A stretch of 64,000 bases of DNA, from assembly GCF_014204865.1 (NCBI RefSeq), contig NZ_JACHMG010000001.1, positions 6,350,501 through 6,414,500 of the forward strand, written 5' to 3'. The position numbers were made by a program, and so were the translations under genes. The stretch comes from Amycolatopsis jiangsuensis (GTDB lineage Bacteria; Actinomycetota; Actinomycetes; Mycobacteriales; Pseudonocardiaceae). The notes below the pieces were generated by a model. The model saw only the letters and a list, made by a program, of their open reading frames with translations. It was not told where the DNA came from and ran no database searches. Below are positions 6,654 to 61,833 of the stretch, in pieces. Position 1 is the first letter of the stretch, and each line of letters opens with the position of its first letter.

Positions 6654-7814
6654 ATGAAAAGAGCTTGTCTCGCGGTGGCGACCGTGGCGCTCACGGCCGG
6701 ACTGGTGGGCTTCTCCGGAACCGCCGCGCTGGCCGCCGGGGCACCGTTGAAGATCGAGACGGTGACGGCCGGCGGGGACGACGGCAACGTCCCGGCGAAC
6801 ACCCAGGACGACGACCTGGAGACCCGGTGGTCCGACGAGGGTGACGGAGCGTGGATCCAGTTCGACCTGGGCTCCGCGCAGACCGTCGGATCGGTGTCGC
6901 TCGCCTGGCACCAGGGCGACACCCGGACCACGAGCTTCGAGGTCCGGCTTTCCGGCGACGGTTCTTCGTGGACCACCGCGGTGCCCCGCCGGAACAGCAG
7001 CGGCAGCACTTCCCAGCTGGAGAACTACGACTTCGCCGACGAATCCGCGCGCTACGTTCGCGTGGTCGGTTACGGCAATACGGTGAACGACTGGACAAGC
7101 ATCACCGAAGCGCGGGTGAACGGGGCCGACGGAGGCGGTGGCGGGAGCGACTGTGCCAATCCGGCCGACGTGCTGGACCTCCAGAACTGGTACCTCGGCC
7201 TGCCGATCGGCGAGAAGGAGCATCCGCAGAACGTCAAGCAGCCGGAGCTGGCGACGTATTCGGTCGACCCGTGGTTCCGCGCCACCGACGACTGCACGGC
7301 GGTGCAGTTCCGGGCCGCGGTCAACGGCGTGACCACCAGCGGATCCGACTACCCGCGGTCGGAACTGCGGGAGATGACCGACTCGGGCAAGGAGGAGGCC
7401 AGCTGGTCCTCGACCTCGGGCACGCACACCATGGTGATCGACGAGGCCATCACCGCGGCTCCCGAGGGGCGGCCCAACATCGTCGCCGGTCAGATCCACG
7501 GCAGCGACGACGACCTCTCGGTGTTCCGGCTGGAGGGCAGCAAGCTCTACGTCACCGACGAGGACGAGAAGCACACGCTGCTGACCAGCGACTACGAGCT
7601 GGGTACCCGGTTCCAGGCGAAGTTCGTGGTGAGCGACGGAAAGATCAAGGCCTACTACAACGGAGACCTGAAGGCCACGCTCTCGAAGAAGTTCAGCGGC
7701 GCCTACTTCAAGGCCGGGGCCTACACCCAGGCCAACTGTGAGAAGACCTCGCCCTGCAGCGACAGCAATTACGGCGAGGTGAAGATCTACGATCTGGATG
7801 TTTCCCACGAGTAG
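6654..7814 (+). CDS. Secreted PL7 alginate-lyase-like enzyme with discoidin-type binding domain
   Basis: 386 residues starting with a signal peptide (M-K-R-A-C-L-A-V-A, then A-L-A-A-G). Residues ~28-155 form an F5/8 type C domain closely similar to that of the upstream gene; a Gly linker leads to a polysaccharide lyase family 7 domain. The three PL7 signatures are present: R-S-E-L-R-E-M (Arg235), Q-I-H (Gln280, His282) and Y-F-K-A-G-A-Y-T-Q (Tyr357 the likely catalytic Tyr). PL7 enzymes cleave alginate, and some cleave related glucuronans, by beta-elimination. Probably co-transcribed with the GH16-like gene under the upstream LacI-type operator. Confidence 0.9.
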   Translation: MKRACLAVATVALTAGLVGFSGTAALAAGAPLKIETVTAGGDDGNVPANTQDDDLETRWSDEGDGAWIQFDLGSAQTVGSVSLAWHQGDTRTTSFEVRLSGDGSSWTTAVPRRNSSGSTSQLENYDFADESARYVRVVGYGNTVNDWTSITEARVNGADGGGGGSDCANPADVLDLQNWYLGLPIGEKEHPQNVKQPELATYSVDPWFRATDDCTAVQFRAAVNGVTTSGSDYPRSELREMTDSGKEEASWSSTSGTHTMVIDEAITAAPEGRPNIVAGQIHGSDDDLSVFRLEGSKLYVTDEDEKHTLLTSDYELGTRFQAKFVVSDGKIKAYYNGDLKATLSKKFSGAYFKAGAYTQANCEKTSPCSDSNYGEVKIYDLDVSHE

Positions 7815-7871
7815 GACGAGATCGAGGTGTCCCGGTCGCCGCGGACAATAGTGTGCGCGGGACGAAACCGC

Positions 7872-7884
7872 TAAACTACCCGGT
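7872..7884 (+). promoter_or_regulatory. Leaderless-type -10 element for the kinase gene
   Basis: TAAACT (7872-7877) followed by 7 bases and then the GTG start matches the TANNNT-N6-7-start arrangement of leaderless actinobacterial mRNAs. No convincing ribosome binding site precedes the GTG. No clear -35 was identified. Confidence 0.45.
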
Positions 7885-9663
7885 GTGCGAACGGGGGACG
7901 TCGTCGGCGACCGATACCTGCTCGAGGACGCTCGAGGGGCAGGTACCGGTGGCATCGTCTGGACGGGGTTCGACCGGAAGCTGAAGCGGACCGTGGCCCT
8001 CAAACGGCCGCACGCGCTGGCCAGCCAGGCCGACCGGCTGCAGTTCCGGCAGGAGGCCGAGATCGCGGCGAGGGTGCACCACCCGAACGTGATCTCGGTC
8101 TTCGACACCGTCGACGACGACGAGTGCTGGCTGGTGATGGAGTACTCGCCTGCCCGCGGTCTGGACCAGGTGCTGGCGGCGGGCGGGCCGCTGCCGGCCG
8201 GGCGGGTGGCGCGGATCGGCGCGCAGATCGCGGCCGCGCTGTCGGCCGTGCACGCCCGCAACATCGTGCACCGGGACGTGAAGCCGGGCAACATCCTCGT
8301 CGACGACCAGGATTTCGCGCAGCTCACCGATTTCGGCATCTCCGTATGGCGGCAGGTGACGTGGACCGGCGACGGGTCCTTCAGCGGCACCGCCGGCTAC
8401 GCCGCCCCCGAGGTGGTCGCCGGCCGGCCGGCGACCACGGCGTCGGACGTGTTCTCCCTCGGCGCGACCCTCTTCGCCGCGCTCGAGGGCACCTCGCCGT
8501 TCGGCACCGGCGCGCCGGGCGAGGTGCTGAAGCGGGTGGGCGGCGGCGAGCTGCTGCCGTCACCCCACGCGGGCCCGCTCGCCCCGCTGCTGACGCGGAT
8601 GCTGGCGCTGGAGCCGCGGAAGCGGCCGACCGCCGAGGAGGCGCACGGGCAGCTCCGGGAACTCGGCGGTGCCGCGGCGGCGCCCTCCCCGGTGGTCCGG
8701 CCGGTCGTCACCGGACGCCCGTTCTGGCGCCGTCCGCGGTACCAGGCGCTCGCCGCCGCGGCGGTGGTCGCCGGCATCTGCGCCGCGGTGTTCCTCCGGA
8801 CGGACCAGCCGCAGCCCGGAACGAGCCAGGCAGCGGCGTCGGTCACCGACTTCGTCGGCGACGAGCGGACGGTCGACCCCTGCGCGCTGCTCGACCGGAA
8901 GGTGCTGGAGCAGTTCGGCCCGACGGAGCTGCAGAGCACCCGCGGGAACTTCAACCGCTGCGACGTCATGGTCAACAGCGGCGCCCAGGACTCGGTGGAC
9001 GTCGAGGTGCAGCTGGTCAGCCGCTCGGCGAACGAGGTGCCGGGCGGACCGGCCGAGGTGATCGTCGAGAAGCCCACGGACAGTGACGAATGCGACCGCA
9101 GCATGGTGCTCGATCGCGAGTACGCCGTACGGATCACCGCGAGCATGCCCAATCCTCCGGCGAACCTGTGCACCATCGCCGACGCGGCGGTGGAGGTGGT
9201 GCGCGACCACGTCACCGACGGCGGGGGGCTGCTCCCGCGCCGGTCGGTCGCCTTCCCCGCGGATTCGCTGGCCCTGCTCGACGCCTGTGCCCTGCTGGAC
9301 GCCGGGGCGCTGGCCGAACTGCCCGCGATCGACCCGCGATCCGCGCAGCCCGACTTCGGCAACTGGTCGTGCAAGTGGTTCGGCGGGGAAGGTGCGGCCC
9401 AGGTCCACCTCCGTTACGACCAGCACGTCGCCGGGGACAAGATCGGCGGGGAGCCGACTCCGCTGGGCAGCCACACCGCCTACGTCCGGCGGGACGTCGA
9501 CTCGGGCACCAGCTGCACGGTCACCGTGCCGCAGCAGAGCCGGCAGTGGCGTGCCGTCGTCGACCTGATGGTGCTCACGGTGAAGGGTGACCGGCCCGGC
9601 GACGAGTACTGCCCCGTCGCGACCCGGTTGTCGGCCGCGGCCGCCGCCGGGCTGCCGCACTGA
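7885..9663 (+). CDS. Receptor-type Ser/Thr protein kinase with DUF3558-like outer domains
   Basis: 592 residues. A PknB-type kinase domain covers ~8-265: A-L-K-R supplies the VAIK lysine, H-R-D-V-K-P-G-N (His129-Asp131) is the catalytic loop and D-F-G is intact, so it should be active. A membrane helix (~290-310) leads to an outside part with two Cys-containing units, each starting D-x-C-A-L-L-D, resembling tandem DUF3558 domains. The next gene codes an FHA (phosphothreonine-binding) protein, then mycP follows, so kinase and FHA may signal to the type VII locus. The ligand of the outer domain is unknown. Confidence 0.9.
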   Translation: MRTGDVVGDRYLLEDARGAGTGGIVWTGFDRKLKRTVALKRPHALASQADRLQFRQEAEIAARVHHPNVISVFDTVDDDECWLVMEYSPARGLDQVLAAGGPLPAGRVARIGAQIAAALSAVHARNIVHRDVKPGNILVDDQDFAQLTDFGISVWRQVTWTGDGSFSGTAGYAAPEVVAGRPATTASDVFSLGATLFAALEGTSPFGTGAPGEVLKRVGGGELLPSPHAGPLAPLLTRMLALEPRKRPTAEEAHGQLRELGGAAAAPSPVVRPVVTGRPFWRRPRYQALAAAAVVAGICAAVFLRTDQPQPGTSQAAASVTDFVGDERTVDPCALLDRKVLEQFGPTELQSTRGNFNRCDVMVNSGAQDSVDVEVQLVSRSANEVPGGPAEVIVEKPTDSDECDRSMVLDREYAVRITASMPNPPANLCTIADAAVEVVRDHVTDGGGLLPRRSVAFPADSLALLDACALLDAGALAELPAIDPRSAQPDFGNWSCKWFGGEGAAQVHLRYDQHVAGDKIGGEPTPLGSHTAYVRRDVDSGTSCTVTVPQQSRQWRAVVDLMVLTVKGDRPGDEYCPVATRLSAAAAAGLPH

Positions 9664-54395: not shown

Positions 54396-54911
54396 TCACC
54401 GGTGCACGGTGAGCGTGGCCGGGCCGAGCCGCAGCACGCCGTCGTCCAGCGGTCCGCACCGCACGCCGCCGCGCCCGCGCAGGCCGCGGAACGCGCCGGG
54501 CCCCACCGACACGTCCATCCAGGCACACGGGTTGGCCGGCCGGAACGCCTGCAGCCGCACCGGCCCGTCGCCGGAGTCCAGGGAGAACAGCGCCCCCGGA
54601 CGGTCGCGGCCCGCGGCCAGCTCGTCGATCCGGAAGCCACGCAGCACGATGTTGCGCCGGGTCAGGTGCGGATCGGGCGCGCCGAACGGGTCCAGCGCCG
54701 CGGCATCGAACACGGTGACCGCGGCCCGCCGGTGCGCGGCCTGGTTGAAGTACCGGTCGCCGACCAGGCCAAGGCCCGCGCGCACGGTCACGTGATCCCG
54801 CGCGGTCCCGGCCGGTTCCGGGGCCGGCCCGTCCGCCGGGCGGCCCTCGAAGGCGTGTACCGGCGAGACGAGCAGCGCCACGATCTCCACCGTCCGGCTG
54901 CTGCTGTCCAC
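54396..54911 (-). CDS. MOSC-domain protein
   Basis: 171 residues from GTG 54911. MOSC fold motifs: G-L-G-L-V-G-D-R-Y-F, T-R-R-N-I-V-L-R-G and the conserved Cys in R-P-A-N-P-C-A-W-M-D. MOSC domains transfer sulfur, or bind molybdenum cofactor; single-domain forms have unclear substrates. The 66-residue gene follows upstream on the same strand with a 10-base gap, so they may be co-transcribed. Confidence 0.87.
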   Translation of the reverse strand: MDSSSRTVEIVALLVSPVHAFEGRPADGPAPEPAGTARDHVTVRAGLGLVGDRYFNQAAHRRAAVTVFDAAALDPFGAPDPHLTRRNIVLRGFRIDELAAGRDRPGALFSLDSGDGPVRLQAFRPANPCAWMDVSVGPGAFRGLRGRGGVRCGPLDDGVLRLGPATLTVHR

Positions 54912-54921
54912 GCCCTCGACG

Positions 54922-55122
54922 TTACCCGGCGAGAAGCCGCTGCAGCCGGGCGCGCGCCATCCGGTAGAGCAGTTCGCCGGCCTCGTCCGGCACGATCCGG
55001 CCGTCGAGGGCGAGCCCGGTCGCCCGGACCACCTCCTCGACCACGGGCGCGGGCAGCTTGCCCGCGAACTCGCCGGTCAGCCACACGCTGACCTCGTTTT
55101 CGGCTCTGGTGCGCACAGCCAT
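54922..55122 (-). CDS. Small helical protein (three-helix-bundle type)
   Basis: 66 residues, ATG 55122 after GGAG. Three predicted helices: V-S-V-W-L-T-G-E-F, P-A-P-V-V-E-E-V-V-R-A-T and A-G-E-L-L-Y-R-M-A-R-A-R-L-Q-R-L-L. This resembles the small 'three-helix bundle dimerisation' proteins common in actinobacteria. No known function. First gene of a unit with the MOSC protein. Confidence 0.65.
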   Translation of the reverse strand: MAVRTRAENEVSVWLTGEFAGKLPAPVVEEVVRATGLALDGRIVPDEAGELLYRMARARLQRLLAG

Positions 55123-55234
55123 CGGATGCTCCGGTTTCCGCTCGTGGGGCCGTACGGGGCGGCCCGACGCTGGTCAGACGTGCGAGCCGGGCGGGTATGA
55201 CGCGAAATCGGGACCCCTCCCGCGTGGGTCGGCC

Positions 55235-55247
55235 TACGGTCCCCGCC
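55235..55247 (+). promoter_or_regulatory. Leaderless-type -10 of the Hsp70 operon
   Basis: TACGGT (55235-55240) followed by 7 bases and ATG 55248; no ribosome binding site in front of the ATG. Indicates the operon starts here. Confidence 0.5.
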
Positions 55248-56639
55248 ATGGGTGAGAACGAGGGCCGGGGCCGGGCCGCCGCGGCACGCCTGCGGGCGAT
55301 CTCCACGCCCGAGCTGTACCGGCGCAACCCGTTCCGGATCACCGGGCTCACCGCGACCGCGACCCGGCGGGAGGTGCGGGAGCGGCGGCTTCGGGTGCTG
55401 GGGGTACTCGAAGTCGGCGGTGCCCGGCCGCCGGGCGTGCCCGGTGACGCGTCCGCCGACGAGGTGCGCGCGGCGTTCGACGCGCTCGGCAACGCCGAGC
55501 ACCGGTTCGTGGACGAGCTGTTCTGGACCTGGGGGCCACCCTCGGACTGCGGCTGCCCGGCGCAGCTGCATCGAGCGCACGACAACGCGGTGACCGCGTA
55601 TGCCGGAGCACTCGACGCCGAAGCGGAACGGACCGAAGACCACCCCGCGCCGCTGTGGCACGACGCTGCCCGCAGCTGGGACGCCGCCCTGAGCAACGGT
55701 GCGTTCCGGGCACATCTGGTGCACCGGACAGGCAAGCTCGGTGACCGCCGGCTTGATGAGTCCTCCGTGGACGGATTACGTGCGGCGCTGCCCGAGGCCT
55801 TGCTGGCGCCACTGGTCTCGCTGCTCTCGTCCTCGCCGAGACCGGATCGGTTCGTCGAATACCTGACGCTGTTCGGGGCCGCGCGACACGTCGTCGAGGA
55901 CGCCCGTATGGAGGCGGCCGGCGGGACCTACCAGCAGGTCGAGGAGCTGCTGAAAGGACTGCGTTCCGCGGTGGACGGCGACCAGGCCAGGACCGCGGCC
56001 GACCGGCTCGTGGAAGAGCTGCCGCCCCTGCTCGACCGGCTCGAGGAAGTCGTTCCCCGCGAGGAGTTCCGCCGTACCGCGGCGTTCAGCGAGGCGGCGG
56101 CGGTGCTGGCGAACAACATCGGCGTCGCCCTCGGAGAGAACGGGGACGCACCGGCGAACCTGCTGCGTGAGGTGTTCGCCGCGGGCCGCGGCTGGACCAC
56201 GGACCCGGACACCCTGGCAGCACTGGAACGCAACGAAAGTGCTGCCCTGGCTGAGAAACCGTGGTACGGGACTCCGGGCCGCCCGGCGCCGCTCATGCAT
56301 CGCTCGACGGCCCCGGCGCAACCGCAGGCCTCCCTCGCCCTGGTGCTGGCCGCGTTGGTGCATGTGGCCGCCGGGATCACGTTCCTCGCGGTGACGCTGA
56401 TTTCGCCGCTGCTGCCGATTCTCCTGATCGGCCTGCCGGGTTTGTTGATTTCTCTTGGCGCGGCGGGAAATCCGCGCACCGGGCGGCCGCGGTTCCCGGT
56501 GCTGCTCGGCGTGGACGCTGTCTTGTACCTCGGCGTGGCACACGGTTCGCCGGCGTCGTGGGTAGTCGTGGTTCTCGCGGTGGTGCTGCTGATCGTCGCG
56601 CCCGCCACCTTCGTCTCGACCGAGCGGGAGTACCGGTGA
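55248..56639 (+). CDS. Membrane protein of the Hsp70 operon
   Basis: 463 residues. The N-terminal part (~20-120) begins T-P-E-L-Y-R-R-N-P-F-R-I-T-G-L with an Arg-rich helix and a C-G-C motif. It could be a degenerate J-like or client-binding domain, but there is no H-P-D. A long helical middle (~120-345) is followed by about four membrane helices (~370-450). Its stop overlaps the start of the GrpE-like gene (GTGA). I do not recognise the family; the operon context suggests a membrane co-chaperone or substrate adaptor for the Hsp70. Confidence 0.75.
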   Translation: MGENEGRGRAAAARLRAISTPELYRRNPFRITGLTATATRREVRERRLRVLGVLEVGGARPPGVPGDASADEVRAAFDALGNAEHRFVDELFWTWGPPSDCGCPAQLHRAHDNAVTAYAGALDAEAERTEDHPAPLWHDAARSWDAALSNGAFRAHLVHRTGKLGDRRLDESSVDGLRAALPEALLAPLVSLLSSSPRPDRFVEYLTLFGAARHVVEDARMEAAGGTYQQVEELLKGLRSAVDGDQARTAADRLVEELPPLLDRLEEVVPREEFRRTAAFSEAAAVLANNIGVALGENGDAPANLLREVFAAGRGWTTDPDTLAALERNESAALAEKPWYGTPGRPAPLMHRSTAPAQPQASLALVLAALVHVAAGITFLAVTLISPLLPILLIGLPGLLISLGAAGNPRTGRPRFPVLLGVDAVLYLGVAHGSPASWVVVVLAVVLLIVAPATFVSTEREYR

Positions 56640-57139
56640 ACGAACAGCGCAACGACGCCCGGCAACGCCGGTACCACAAGGAGTTCCGGATCGCCGAACC
56701 CGGCCTGCACGCCGATGACCGAGCCCGGCTGCGGGACCTGTTGGCGCAGCTTTCCGCCGTACGGCAAGCGGTTCCGGAGCGTACCGGGCCGGAACTGTCC
56801 GAATCGGACCTCGCGGCCGCGGCGACCGCGCTGTGGAAGGCACGGCGCAGGCTCGACGGCGCGCAGGACCGGGTGGCCCGCCAGGCGGGGCGGCTGCTGC
56901 GGGCGTCCCACGATGCGCTCCACGACGCCGGGGTGGAAGTACAGGACCACGACGGTGCGCCGTTCGACACCGGCCTGGCCCTGGAGGTGCTGCTGTTCCA
57001 GGACCAACCGGGGCTGGACATGGAACGGGTGGTGGAAACGGTCCGGCCCTCGGTCTATCTGATGCAGCGGCGGATCCAGATGGGGCAGGTCGTCGTGGGA
57101 CGTCCGGCCGGGCAGGCAGGGGAGGAAACGGATGCGTGA
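56636..57139 (+). CDS. GrpE-like nucleotide exchange factor
   Basis: 167 residues from GTG 56636. Helical N-terminal half, then a GrpE-like C-terminal beta domain. Conserved pattern G-A-P-F-D-T-G-L-A-L-E-V-L, V-V-E-T-V-R-P-S-V-Y and G-Q-V-V-V-G-R-P corresponds to GrpE G-x-P-F-D...V-x-x-x-x-R-x-G-Y...V-x-V-G. Lower similarity than a housekeeping grpE. Eight-base overlap with the Hsp70 gene indicates a dedicated exchange factor for it. Confidence 0.75.
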   Translation: MNEQRNDARQRRYHKEFRIAEPGLHADDRARLRDLLAQLSAVRQAVPERTGPELSESDLAAAATALWKARRRLDGAQDRVARQAGRLLRASHDALHDAGVEVQDHDGAPFDTGLALEVLLFQDQPGLDMERVVETVRPSVYLMQRRIQMGQVVVGRPAGQAGEETDA

Positions 57140-59624
57140 CACGATCGACTTCGGCATCGACCTCGGCACCACGAACAGCGCGATCGCGGTGCTCGACGGC
57201 GGCGCGGTCTCGGTGGTCAAGAACCACAAGCAGATCGACTACACGCCGTCGGCGGTGTGGATGCGCAAGCGTGGCGTGCTCGTGGTCGGCAGCGGTGCGC
57301 TCGACCGCCTCGACAACGATCCCGACAACGTGCAGATCGAGTTCAAGCAGGCGATGGGGCTGCCCGACGCCCGCCGTGAATTCCCCGCCGCGGGGGTGTC
57401 GATGACCCCGGTCGAGCTGTCCGCCGAGGTGCTGAAGGCGTTGCGCGAAGACACCGGACGCTCCCTCCACGAGCCGCCGCAGGCAGCGGTGATCACGGTG
57501 CCCGCCGCGTTCCGGCTCAACCAGACCGAGGCCACGCAGGAGGCGGCTCGGCTGGCCGGCTTCACCGGACCGTGCCAGCTGCTGCAGGAACCCACCGCGG
57601 CGGCTTTCGCGTTCGGCTTCCAGAACGAGAGCCGGGGCGCCCACTGGATGGTGTTCGACCTCGGCGGCGGGACGTTCGACTCGGCTGTGGTCAGCACCGT
57701 GGAGGAGGAGCTGAGCGTGCTGCACCACGCCGGCGACACGCACCTCGGCGGCCGGAACATCGACCGGATGCTGGTCGATCGGTTGCTCGTGCCCGCGGTC
57801 GAACGCCAGCTCGGGTTTCGCGACTTCACCCGGGACAACCCGCGCTGGCAACGGCATTTCGCACATCTGCGCAGTGCCGCGGAGGCCGCGAAAATCGAGC
57901 TGTCCCAGCAGGAGCAGACCCAGGTGATGGTGATGCTCGACCGCGGTGACGGCGAGAGCGAGATGCTCGACGTGACCGTGCGCCGGGAGGAGGTGGACCA
58001 GCTGGCCAAGCCGTTCTACCTGCGCGCGATCCAGCTGTGCCGGGACGCGCTGGACTCGGCCAACCTGCGCGCGCCGGACATCGACCGGCTGCTGCTCGTC
58101 GGTGGCCCGACGCAGGCACCAGGGCTGCGGGAGCTGCTGGCCGATCCGGTCGAGGGGCTCGGGATTCCGCTCGACCACAGCCAGGACCCGAGCACGGTGG
58201 TCGCCCGCGGCGCGGCGCTCTACGCCGGCACGATCGCGCTGCCGCGGATCGAGCGTCCGGTCAAGCGCGGTGAGTACTCGCTGAAACTGTCCTACCCCGC
58301 GACGTCCAGCCTGCCGATGGTGCCGGTGTCCGGCCGTTGTTCGACCGAGGGCGAGGCGGACTGGAGCCGGTTCCGGATCGCGCTGAACGACCCGGAGCGG
58401 CGGCCCGCGTACCGGACCGTCCCGGTTTCGCTGTCCCCGGACGGCACGTTCACCGTCGACGTGCTGCTCGCGGAACGGACCGTCAACCGGTTCGGCGTGG
58501 AGCTGACCGATCCGTCCGGGGCGCCGGCACCCGTCCAGCCCGCCACCCTCACGATCACCCACCAGCCCAACGAGATGATGGGGCAAACCGTGGTGAACAC
58601 CGTCGGGCTGACCGAGGCCGACGGCAGTTTCACCCCGATGCTGATGAAGAACACCCCACTGCCCGCCTCGAAACGGCAGACGTTCTACACCACCTCGACG
58701 CTGCGCCGCGGCGACACCTCGGCGGTGATCCGCATCCCGGTCGCCGAGGGGGAACGGCGCAGGGGCGACCGGAACCAGCAGGTCGGCGTGATCGAGATCC
58801 GGGCACGGGACGTGCGGTTCGACGTGCCCCGGGGCAGGGACGTCGAGATGACCTTCGAGATGGACGAATCACGGCAGGTGACCGTGGTGGCCTACGTACC
58901 GATGCTGGATCGGGAGTTCGAGGCCGTGATCGACCTGAAGCAGCAGCGGATTCCGGACGAGCAGCTGCTGCGCCGGATGCTGAGCGAACTGGAGGCGCGG
59001 CACGAAGAGCTGCGGTCCCAGGTCGAGACGACGCGGTCGGACCGGGCTCGCGGACTGCTGCAGCGGCTGGACGACCGGGCCACGGTGGCGACCGCGCGGG
59101 ACGAGGTGACGGCCGGGCGCACCGACGAGGCCGCGGCCACCGCGGCGGAGGAGCGGATGCGGGACGCGCAGGCCGACCTCGACGACATCGAGGCGGAACT
59201 GCGGGTGCCGGAGGTGATGGAACGGCTGTCCGACCAGATCGAGTACACCCGTGGCCTCGTCGATCGGGTCGGCTCCGAGGAGGACCGCGCCGAACTGGCC
59301 GATATCGAGCGGCGGTACGCGGCCGTGGCGCAGGACCGTGACGCCGATGCCGGCGAACGGCTGTCCGACCGGCTGCTGGACCTGCAGGTGGTGCTGCTGC
59401 GCCGGGACGGTTCGCTGGACCTGGAGGTGTTCAACGCCCTGCGTGCGATGCAGGGCCAGATGACCGACCCGGCGCGGGCGCGTGAACTGATCCGTGAGGG
59501 TGAGCGGATGGTCTCGGCGTCGAACTGGGCCGCGCTGCCGGACGTCAACCGCCGCCTGCGCAAGCTGCTGCCGGATCAGGGCCGCGACGTCCGGTCCGGC
59601 GTGCAGCGGAAGGACCGCCCGTGA
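57132..59624 (+). CDS. Divergent Hsp70-family protein with extended coiled-coil tail
   Basis: 830 residues, longer than DnaK (~610-640). ATPase domain: G-I-D-L-G-T-T-N-S (8-16), D-L-G-G-G-T-F-D (176-183), L-L-V-G-G-P-T-Q-A-P; the phosphate-binding loops are intact. Residues ~390-590 form beta domains unlike the DnaK substrate-binding domain. From ~600 to 790 there are highly charged, Arg/Glu-rich helices predicted to coil. No EEVD or other usual tail. A dnaK paralogue with its own GrpE-like and membrane partners; probable role in envelope-linked protein remodelling (inference). Confidence 0.88.
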   Translation: MRDTIDFGIDLGTTNSAIAVLDGGAVSVVKNHKQIDYTPSAVWMRKRGVLVVGSGALDRLDNDPDNVQIEFKQAMGLPDARREFPAAGVSMTPVELSAEVLKALREDTGRSLHEPPQAAVITVPAAFRLNQTEATQEAARLAGFTGPCQLLQEPTAAAFAFGFQNESRGAHWMVFDLGGGTFDSAVVSTVEEELSVLHHAGDTHLGGRNIDRMLVDRLLVPAVERQLGFRDFTRDNPRWQRHFAHLRSAAEAAKIELSQQEQTQVMVMLDRGDGESEMLDVTVRREEVDQLAKPFYLRAIQLCRDALDSANLRAPDIDRLLLVGGPTQAPGLRELLADPVEGLGIPLDHSQDPSTVVARGAALYAGTIALPRIERPVKRGEYSLKLSYPATSSLPMVPVSGRCSTEGEADWSRFRIALNDPERRPAYRTVPVSLSPDGTFTVDVLLAERTVNRFGVELTDPSGAPAPVQPATLTITHQPNEMMGQTVVNTVGLTEADGSFTPMLMKNTPLPASKRQTFYTTSTLRRGDTSAVIRIPVAEGERRRGDRNQQVGVIEIRARDVRFDVPRGRDVEMTFEMDESRQVTVVAYVPMLDREFEAVIDLKQQRIPDEQLLRRMLSELEARHEELRSQVETTRSDRARGLLQRLDDRATVATARDEVTAGRTDEAAATAAEERMRDAQADLDDIEAELRVPEVMERLSDQIEYTRGLVDRVGSEEDRAELADIERRYAAVAQDRDADAGERLSDRLLDLQVVLLRRDGSLDLEVFNALRAMQGQMTDPARARELIREGERMVSASNWAALPDVNRRLRKLLPDQGRDVRSGVQRKDRP

Positions 59625-60502
59625 CCGGGCCCGGCGGGATGCTGGAAGCGGAGCTGGTCCTCGCCGAGGCCGCCGACCTCGCCCGCGACGGGCAGTATCC
59701 GGCTGCCGTGGAACTGCTGAGTGGCGGACCGGACGATCCGGCGTACCTGGACCTGCTGGCCCGCGTGCACGCCCAGTCCGGCGACCTGGACGCGGCCGAC
59801 GCGGCGTGGGCGGCGGTGCTGCGGCTGCGGCCGGACGATCCCCACGCGGAGGCCGGACGGCGGGTGCTCGCCCGGATCCGTTCGGGACGGCTGCGCCGTC
59901 GTCCGGTCCGGCGCAAGCTGCTGGCCGGCGGGGCGGTCGTGCTGGCCGCTGCGGTGGTCACCGGTGGCGTGGTGCTGGCGACGCGCCCCGCGCCGCCGGT
60001 TGCGGCCGCCCAGCCGGACCGCGGCCTGCGTGCCGAACTCGACCGGCTGCACGTCGCACAGTCCAGCGCCGCAGCGGCAAAAACCGCGCAGCAGCAACGG
60101 CTCACTGACCTGGCCGGCGCGTTGGCCGCACCCGATGTGACTGTGACGCAAGGGGATGGCGAGGTGGTCGTCACCTTCGACCAAGGCCTGTTCGGGCCGG
60201 ACGCGATCAGTCCGGACCCGGCAGGCCGAGCGGCGCTGGAACAGTGGGCATCTGTCCTAAAAGGACAGTCAGTGCGGGTGACCGTGGTCGGCCACGGCGT
60301 CGCGGTCGCCGGTGGCCCGGCCGGTGGCGGCTCGACGGTCTCGCTGGCGCGGGCGGCCTCGGCGGCCAGGGTGCTGGCCACCGCGAGCGGATTGCCGTTG
60401 ACGACGTTCGCGGTTTCGAGTGCCGACCAGACGGCCTCGGCGCATCCGGACGGCGGACCGGAGGCGAACCGCACGGTGACCCTGGAAGTGCGGCCGAGCT
60501 GA
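59621..60502 (+). CDS. TPR - membrane helix - OmpA-like domain protein
   Basis: 293 residues from GTG 59621, overlapping the Hsp70 stop (GTGA). Residues 1-85 are TPR-like helices (A-D-L-A-R-D-G-Q-Y-P-A-A-V-E-L-L, A-A-D-A-A-W-A-A-V-L-R-L-R-P-D-D-P-H-A). A single membrane helix (~102-122) leads to an outer coiled segment and an OmpA-like domain (~165-290: V-T-F-D-Q-G-L-F, V-R-V-T-V-V-G-H-G, L-A-R-A-A-S-A-A-R-V, N-R-T-V-T-L-E-V). OmpA-like domains bind peptidoglycan, and TPR commonly docks Hsp70. The protein could connect the chaperone to the cell wall. Confidence 0.8.
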   Translation: MTGPGGMLEAELVLAEAADLARDGQYPAAVELLSGGPDDPAYLDLLARVHAQSGDLDAADAAWAAVLRLRPDDPHAEAGRRVLARIRSGRLRRRPVRRKLLAGGAVVLAAAVVTGGVVLATRPAPPVAAAQPDRGLRAELDRLHVAQSSAAAAKTAQQQRLTDLAGALAAPDVTVTQGDGEVVVTFDQGLFGPDAISPDPAGRAALEQWASVLKGQSVRVTVVGHGVAVAGGPAGGGSTVSLARAASAARVLATASGLPLTTFAVSSADQTASAHPDGGPEANRTVTLEVRPS

Positions 60503-60607
60503 GTCTCCCCGCGGACGGGGCACAGTCGTGCGGTGGTCCTGCCTTGCCCGGCCCAGGCCGCTCCCGTTCGCTGGACGCTCTCGAAATGTCGTGCTATTAC
60601 TCGAAAA

Positions 60608-60619
60608 GACCGTCCGGTC
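60608..60619. promoter_or_regulatory. Palindrome GACCG-TC-CGGTC before the P450 gene
   Basis: 5 + 2 + 5 inverted repeat about 25 bases before the P450 start and just after TATTAC (60595-60600), a possible -10. Could be an operator. Confidence 0.4.
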
Positions 60620-60642
60620 CCCGAACCCAGGAGGCTCGTCCG

Positions 60643-61833
60643 ATGACGACCGAGGCCTGTCCGTATCCGTTCCCGGAGGCCGGGCAGCTGGCGCTGGCCC
60701 CGGAGTACGGCCGGTTCCGCAGGTCCGGCGAACTCGGCCGGGTGGAGATGCCGCACGGCGGCACGGCCTGGCTGGCGACCGCGCTGACCGACGTCAAGCT
60801 CGTGCTGGCCGACCTCCGGTTCAGTCGCGCCGCGGCACTGCACAACGACATGCCGCGCACGGTCCCGATGGTCGAGACCACTCCCAACCTGCTGAACCTG
60901 GATCCGCCCGAGCACACCCGGGTGCGCCGGGTGGTCGCGCGGACGTTCACGGTGCGCCGGGTCGAACTGCTGCGGCCCAAGATCCAGCGGCTGGTCGACG
61001 GCCTGCTGGACCGGATGATCGAGCAGGGCCCGCCCGCCGACCTGGTCACCGATTTCGCGCTGCCGCTGGCGATCACCGCGATCAGTGAACTGCTCGGCAT
61101 CCCGCAGGACCGGCGTTCCCAGTTCCACGAGTGGTCGGACAAGGGCGCGGCCATCTCCGACGTGCCGGTCGAGGAGATCGTCGAGGCGCGCCGTCAGCTG
61201 GAGATCTTCTTCCGCGAGCTCGCGGAGGAACGCCGGGTGACGCCGACCGACGATCTGATCGGCCAGATCGTCTCGGCGCGCGACGCCGAGGACCGGCTGA
61301 CCGACGACGAGCTCGTGCAGCTGGGCACCACCCTGCTCGCCGCCGGGCACGAGACCACGGCCAACCAGCTCTCCGGGTACGTGTTCACCCTGCTCAACCG
61401 GCCCGAGCTGTGGCAGCGGCTGCGCGGTGAGCCGGAGCTGGTGCCCGCCGCGGTCGAGGAGCTGGCGCGGATCACCCCGCTCGGCGTGGTCACCTTCGGC
61501 CGGATCGCCAGGGAGGATGTCGAGGTCGGCGGCACCCTGGTGCGTGCGGGGGAGACCGTGGTCTGTCAGATCGCGGCCGCCAACCGGGACGAGGTCGCGT
61601 TCGCCGATCCCGACGAGGTCGACTTCGACCGCGAGACCAACCCGCACATCTCGTTCGGCCACGGCGTGCACCACTGCCTCGGCGCGCCGCTCGCCCGGGT
61701 GGAGCTGCAGATCGGGCTCGCCGCGGTGCTGCGCAGGCTGCCGGAGCTGCGCCTGGCGGTACCGGCCGAAGAGGTTCCGTTCAAGACCGGCCGGCTGCTG
61801 CGCGGACCGAAGTCGCTGCCGGTCACCTGGTAG
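60643..61833 (+). CDS. Cytochrome P450
   Basis: 396 residues from ATG 60643 (AGGAGG upstream). Heme-thiolate motif F-G-H-G-V-H-H-C-L-G with Cys345, I-helix A-G-H-E-T-T, K-helix E-x-x-R in V-E-E-L-A-R. Soluble bacterial class; needs ferredoxin and reductase, none of which is adjacent. Substrate unknown. Probably its own transcript. Convergent with the TetR gene 9 bases downstream. Confidence 0.93.
   Translation: MTTEACPYPFPEAGQLALAPEYGRFRRSGELGRVEMPHGGTAWLATALTDVKLVLADLRFSRAAALHNDMPRTVPMVETTPNLLNLDPPEHTRVRRVVARTFTVRRVELLRPKIQRLVDGLLDRMIEQGPPADLVTDFALPLAITAISELLGIPQDRRSQFHEWSDKGAAISDVPVEEIVEARRQLEIFFRELAEERRVTPTDDLIGQIVSARDAEDRLTDDELVQLGTTLLAAGHETTANQLSGYVFTLLNRPELWQRLRGEPELVPAAVEELARITPLGVVTFGRIAREDVEVGGTLVRAGETVVCQIAAANRDEVAFADPDEVDFDRETNPHISFGHGVHHCLGAPLARVELQIGLAAVLRRLPELRLAVPAEEVPFKTGRLLRGPKSLPVTW

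Follow-up and report, generated by a model that had tools for sequence, protein, structure and literature searches.

An Hsp70 operon of Amycolatopsis jiangsuensis with a J-like membrane protein lacking HPD and a TPR partner with a wall-type domain: a candidate membrane- and wall-tethered chaperone set

Analysis of a 64,000-nucleotide stretch of the Amycolatopsis jiangsuensis genome (contig NZ_JACHMG010000001.1, forward-strand positions 6,350,501 to 6,414,500; this whole stretch is the window) identified four genes at positions 55248-60502, all on the plus strand. Their successive overlaps of 4, 8 and 4 bases were read directly from the sequence (Table 1) and confirmed the layout given in an earlier interpretation made from the letters alone (the sequence-only reading). 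The open reading frames (ORFs) encode a predicted membrane protein with a J-like domain (ORF1), a GrpE-like protein (ORF2), an Hsp70 family protein (ORF3) and a protein with predicted TPR, transmembrane (TM) and wall-type parts (ORF4). The longest frame for ORF1 starts at 55197, but its relatives begin at the ATG at 55248. The set combines intact Hsp70 ATPase motifs with loss of the HPD and arginine residues through which a J domain normally contacts Hsp70.

Table 1. Genes and features of the four-gene set, in window positions. NBD, nucleotide-binding domain; SBD, substrate-binding domain; aa, amino acids.
Feature	Position	Strand	Content or basis
ORF1 (463 aa)	55248-56639	+	J-like domain at the N-terminus, repeat-like helical central part, hydrophobic helices at the C-terminus
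J-like domain of ORF1 (residues 27-87), no HPD	55326-55508	+	Profile comparison
CxC...H..HD motif of ORF1, possible metal site (residues 101-112)	55548-55583	+	Invariant in 17 rows
C-terminal hydrophobic helices of ORF1 (residues 363-462), 2 to 4 TM helices	56334-56633	+	Model helices, hydropathy
ORF2, GrpE-like protein (167 aa, GTG start)	56636-57139	+	Match to the GrpE beta domain over residues 90-161
ORF3, Hsp70 family protein (830 aa)	57132-59624	+	Pfam HSP70 5.7e-75
NBD of ORF3	57150-58235	+	Pfam and alignment; R167-equivalent is Gln149 (57576-57578)
Extra stretch replacing the short interdomain linker of ORF3 (about residues 370-489)	58239-58598	+	Distance from NBD end to SBD-beta Gly
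SBD-beta of ORF3 (about residues 490-610)	58599-58961	+	Alignment
Charged C-terminal tail of ORF3	58962-59621	+	Sequence; no own Pfam family above cut-off
ORF4 (GTG start)	59621-60502	+	TPR-like residues 21-78, TM 101-119, OmpA-like C-terminus about 161-293

Judged by its motifs, ORF3 is an Hsp70 (PF00012) with intact ATPase motifs, and the description of it as an 830-residue Hsp70 with a charged tail held for both the Pfam match and the composition of the tail. Residue counts were made over 67 family sequences (66 ORFs scoring above 250 bits and that of the window) and compared with 20 ordinary actinobacterial DnaKs. The catalytic residues were retained, with K70 present in 66/67, E171 in 67/67 and the Asp of DLGGGTFD in 67/67. 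In contrast to the ordinary DnaKs, all 20 of which have Arg at position 167, none of the 67 family members does (Pro in 64, Thr in 2 and Gln in the window), and the N170 position is Gln in 67/67 versus Asn in 19/20. The E206 and E217 positions, which we take to be J-contact sites of the Hsp70 NBD, are acidic in 1/67 each in the family compared to 20/20 and 19/20 in the ordinary proteins. D481 was considered as an additional lost contact and rejected, as ordinary actinobacterial DnaKs carry Asn there in 17/18.

The interdomain linker of ORF3 also differed. The distance from the NBD end to the first SBD-beta Gly was 82-146 residues (median 130; 129 in the window) in 61/67 family rows and 23 in 18/18 ordinary DnaKs measured, after leaving out short rows, two without an NBD-end match and 2/20 of the ordinary proteins; the minimum of 82, in locus L009, reflects a late NBD-end match. 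Approximately 106 additional residues stand in place of the short linker. No family sequence contained a DLLLD-type linker, compared to 17/20 ordinary DnaKs, using patterns that differed slightly in letters and range for the two groups. These values were taken from a realignment of the linker region, since the first MAFFT alignment had paired the insert with the linker of the ordinary proteins.

R167 loss by itself does not set this family apart. The window's genome encodes three further Hsp70-like proteins (L003, L004 and L005; frames of 673, 660 and 786 aa) whose alignment is confined to the ATPase domain, with no SBD recognised in the aligned part; judged by eye, two of the three lack the Arg and one keeps it.

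ORF1 had been read as a multi-helix membrane protein with an unrecognised N-terminal domain. The first part of this description agreed with hydropathy and with the predicted model, which is all-helical (predicted local distance difference test score, pLDDT, 88.2) with hydrophobic stretches at the C-terminus; the second part was not sustained, as profile comparison identified the N-terminal domain as a relative of the J domain. A profile of ORF1 relatives (66 rows) matched a profile of 18 J domains, selected by a pattern from actinobacterial genomes, over 60 columns with a probability of 94.5 and a score of 41.3. The 14 divergent rows alone gave 95.8 and 46.7, respectively, compared to scores of 18.0 for the best of 100 column shuffles and 10.3 for the reversed profile. 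A forced global alignment of the two profiles was weaker (probability 67.6). Together, these comparisons indicated that the ORF1 N-terminus is homologous to the J domain. A PDB sequence search with the ORF1 profile gave 10 weak, unrelated matches.

The HPD motif was absent from the J-like loop in all of the 66 rows long enough to judge, and the sole HPD found, in L071, sits ahead of helix I and outside the loop. As HPD between helices II and III is missing, ORF1 would be classed as J-like and not as a J-domain protein proper. The R22 position in the J-like helix II is basic in 63/67.

Two further observations concern ORF1. The possible metal site shifts among relatives: CxC...H..HD follows the J-like domain at 47/66 loci, a CxxC...RCxxC ribbon lies near the TM helices at 7/66, and neither motif was found at 12/66. 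In the Edaphobacter locus (L069, 4592-5533) the J-like domain is preceded by a stretch that by eye resembles a response-regulator receiver domain, and the remainder of the ORF1 match falls in the next frame.

The significance of the missing residues comes from studies of ordinary Hsp70s. According to the available text of the review PMC8215388, H33 of HPD contacts linker residue L391 and D35 contacts R167 and Q378, and J proteins with a substituted His or Asp in HPD no longer stimulated Hsp70 in any of the systems studied; that of PMC7289447 places R167 at the centre of an NBD/SBD-linker network. From the alignments, both sides of the HPD-R167 contact are missing in this set, and since the trigger residues are lost on both sides, the set probably relies on another kind of switch.

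An alternative is that ORF1 is an inert J-like tether, as mitochondrial Pam16 would be, and that the Hsp70 is an ATP-gated membrane holdase or scaffold with no J trigger. The absence of HPD and the rarity of acidic residues at E206 and E217, whose contact role we presume, are in keeping with such a tether, and PMC11349236, in its available text, describes Pam16 as J-like and questions whether domains of this kind stimulate Hsp70. However, the set keeps its ATPase residues as well as a GrpE partner, and the largely basic R22 position suggests that docking is also retained. We regard an inert tether as somewhat unlikely.

The mitochondrial PAM motor contains Pam16/Pam18, mtHsp70 and Mge1. It resembles the set in its manner of working, with a membrane-bound J-like protein, an Hsp70 and a GrpE together. 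In yeast the motor pairs J-like Pam16 with HPD-bearing Pam18, whereas the window set has no linked HPD protein and has a wall-type partner.

ORF2 had no Pfam match at E<=1, and thus lies below the PF01025 cut-off, and a PDB sequence search with its profile gave 0 matches. Its predicted structure (pLDDT 88.7) had GrpE chains as all 12 of its best PDB matches. The model therefore indicated a GrpE fold with a divergent sequence, in agreement with the earlier assignment of a divergent GrpE. The ORF2 match is split over two reading frames in L070 (6702-7246) and L075 (6992-7467), which may be real or a sequencing fault. In addition, the window's genome has a second GrpE-like gene (Pfam GrpE 8.5e-8; L205, 3146-7742, at about 5.277-5.281 Mb), flanked by two dynamin-family GTPase genes and near a phosphoenolpyruvate carboxykinase gene; none of the Hsp70 matches of the genome falls at L205.

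ORF4 has sub-threshold Pfam TPR matches and one hydrophobic segment. Eight Lys/Arg residues lie within the 15 residues ahead of this segment, which suggests that the TPR part is inside and the C-terminus outside. Against an OmpA profile of only 3 pattern-chosen rows the C-terminus scored 42.1, with 15.4 for the best of 60 shuffles. For the window protein itself, Pfam gave no OmpA hit at E<=1. Its relatives in L053 (8.6e-11) and L059 (1.4e-7) were over the Pfam OmpA cut-off, further matches below the cut-off were found in L060 (9.6e-4) and L067 (5.7e-5), and none in L016, L043 or L051. Based on the profile comparison and the relatives, the ORF4 C-terminus is assigned as homologous to the OmpA C-terminal domain, which supports the TPR-TM-OmpA-like architecture first suggested.

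We take D271 and R286 of Acinetobacter baumannii OmpA to be its diaminopimelate-binding Asp and Arg. The Arg is kept in 48/48 rows, including that of the window. At the position of ORF4, the loci L061 (Chloroflexota), L072 (Omnitrophota) and L074 (Acetobacteraceae, with an additional BON domain) encode a TPR-TM-LysM protein. That one gene position can hold either of two unrelated predicted wall-binding domain types is the strongest indication of contact between the outer domain and the wall. The proposed wall anchoring is plausible for the family and weaker for the window copy, whose OmpA-like domain does not have the usual Asp.

The four genes might simply be a spare DnaK-DnaJ-GrpE set of the ordinary kind, neither located nor switched in any special way. 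Each of the three roles has a representative, with an Hsp70 ATPase domain and SBD-beta, a GrpE fold and a J-domain relative, and the available text of PMC11019930 reports extra dnaK copies in 19.4% of 3247 actinobacterial genomes. However, ORF3 scored 269.4 bits against TIGR02350 (DnaK), for which the cut-off is 822.55; the set differs from DnaK-DnaJ-GrpE in lacking HPD and R167 and in having an insert for the short linker; and its J-like and TPR partners both have TM segments, the latter with a wall-type domain. We consider a spare set very improbable. Ordinary DnaK, GrpE and DnaJ are also encoded in the window's genome, together at 5.367-5.370 Mb, so that the set does exist beside a normal dnaK-grpE-dnaJ there, as had been envisaged. 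The available text of PMC11019930 likewise describes an extra DnaK in Myxococcus, DnaK2, which prefers membrane proteins; it names no such operon.

Genome contigs were scanned with the ORF2 profile, and 68 named loci were obtained. Among these, the J-like gene was found at 66/68, the Hsp70 gene at 65/68, an ORF4 gene by similarity at 52/68 and an upstream Ser/Thr kinase gene at 45/68; visual inspection of the downstream sequence brought in further ORF4-type genes, in L043, L048, L053, L072 and L074. The exceptions include stretches at contig ends (L037, L064 and L068), and L076, although among the 52, is weak throughout. FHA homologues were found in 31/68 stretches (L076 included), some fused to a Trans_reg_C domain. 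A further sample took in 30 loci from the family and is not independent, as it includes the window and several genomes of the 68-locus set; in it the Hsp70 gene adjoined ORF2 in 30/30, Arg at R167 occurred in 0/30, and the J-like gene was present in 25/30 within the 1.5 kb examined.

Loci outside Actinobacteria came from metagenome bins of Chloroflexota (L061 and L068), Deltaproteobacteria (L064), Bacteroidetes (L067), Omnitrophota (L071 and L072) and Acetobacteraceae (L074), and from the Edaphobacter isolate (L069). The gene set is kept together across distant taxa more than by chance, which agrees with the linkage of homologues that the sequence-only reading had named as support. Pairwise distances of the four proteins correlated at 0.88-0.92 over 45 loci, values reached in 0/500 permutations; L022, L049, L057, L070, L075 and L076 were excluded individually, and other loci because they lacked one of the four genes.

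The set was sparsely distributed. Among phylum genomes 7/396 matched at E<=0.001, of which the window's own match was strong and the other six, at 20.6-26.2 bits, are perhaps ordinary GrpE. Among family genomes 32/297 matched, spread over 13/46 genera, and within the genus the set was found in 5 genomes and was missing from at least 20.

This patchy spread could point to a module for biological conflict, directed against invaders, whose chaperone would set the threshold of the response; such a module would be related to the HSP70 theme of the GAP1-N2 GTPase systems. The available text of Kaur et al. 2020 (PMC7159879) links HSP70 to GrpE and to DnaJ- or TPR-bearing proteins in these systems, which are largely actinobacterial and have membrane ties. 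In addition, L061 has an extra HSP70 without a peptide-binding domain, as the GAP1-N2 theme can; this ATPase-domain-only gene (7475-8740) lies between the GrpE-like and full-length Hsp70 genes. However, GAP1-N2 was found in 6/28 genomes searched, with the window's own genome not among them; the five matches examined do not overlap the loci and are on contigs whose lengths differ from those of the locus contigs, and the sixth has a position past the end of its locus contig. No GAP1 was found in the stretches checked and no Pfam FNIII in ORF1, and the set has a kinase and a wall-domain TPR protein instead. The four proteins had no PADLOC-DB 2.0.0 match at E<=1, and no effector family was found among 25 of 48 families from 62 of 112 conserved neighbour frames. 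A conflict module seems improbable to us.

Our preferred reading, which we hold to be about evenly balanced between true and false, is that the operon is a dedicated Hsp70 set, likely tethered between membrane and wall, whose ATPase cycle would be triggered without the HPD-arginine contact. It draws on the gene identities assigned by profile or predicted fold, the linkage, the ATPase motifs, the loss of HPD and R167, the replacement of the linker, and the exchange of OmpA-like and LysM domains. From these we infer the anchoring, recruitment, coupling and purpose of the machine as follows. ORF4 would meet the wall with its outer domain and recruit the Hsp70 through its cytoplasmic TPR, and ORF1 would hold the Hsp70 at the membrane via its J-like domain. 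ORF2 would drive nucleotide exchange on ORF3, and either the inserted stretch or a remodelled J-like contact would trigger hydrolysis. A Ser/Thr kinase is linked in many relatives, frequently together with an FHA gene, and may couple the machine to phosphorylation signalling; based on this coupling we propose that its task is the folding, assembly or gating of proteins of the envelope or of signalling, by the state of the wall. Of the membrane- and wall-anchored chaperone complex initially suggested, the GrpE-like and Hsp70 proteins and the linkage stand and the J-like domain of ORF1 completes a triad; its function is a proposal and the wall contact is weaker for the window copy. The lost contact residues, the insert and the frequent kinase and FHA genes go beyond that first suggestion.

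Several observations weigh against this reading. The OmpA-like Asp position is Val in the window (GHGV), and GHTD was found in 4/48 rows. The linked kinase is missing at the window and at the six closest loci (L009-L014); it is present in the Amycolatopsis loci L015 and L065, and the window's genome has 15 kinase matches (the best 36% identical), two of them inside the window and more than 30 kb from the operon. With a strong match in 1/396 phylum genomes and any match in 32/297 family genomes, the set is accessory and patchy, and hence has no general envelope function. Most records outside Actinobacteria are metagenome bins, and the distance correlations do not take out the effect of the species tree. 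The Foldseek and VIA-align lists for the whole ORF1 model had no J domain and mainly helical repeats; as one domain can fill such lists, this search is no test of the J-like part.

The operon is followed by cytochrome P450, TetR regulator and luciferase-like genes; for the frame that precedes it, Pfam gave no hit. The single leaderless promoter of the sequence-only reading found no support, as a sigma-70 scan gave 0 sites in 54900-60700, and predicted promoters and terminators were no more numerous than in shuffled sequence. A TACGGT ends 8 bases 5' of the ORF1 ATG and no Shine-Dalgarno is evident, given which a leaderless promoter may still serve the operon.

No description of this gene set was found in the literature searched, in which few subscription papers were covered. 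HSP70-GrpE-DnaJ/TPR linkage has already been described (PMC7159879); the available text of that study has no mention of HPD or R167 loss, of a wall-domain TPR protein or of a kinase with the set. These features, together with the linker replacement, the recurrence of the set outside Actinobacteria and the exchange of OmpA-like for LysM domains, appear to be new here.

We tentatively extend the preferred reading to a cross-phylum Hsp70 class with a rebuilt switch, in which a folded insert couples the domains, OmpA-like or LysM domains fix the set to peptidoglycan, and a kinase and FHA transcription factor belong to its fuller form, although we think this broader version is rather less likely to be right than wrong. 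If it is correct, wall state would gate both chaperone action and gene expression. The encoding of an Hsp70 beside wall-type domains and a kinase also hints at a path by which the condition of the wall could reach protein quality control in the cytoplasm, which the literature searched does not describe for this gene set. A natural set that keeps its ATPase without HPD, its arginine partner or the ordinary linker makes the replaceability of the Hsp70 switch directly testable.

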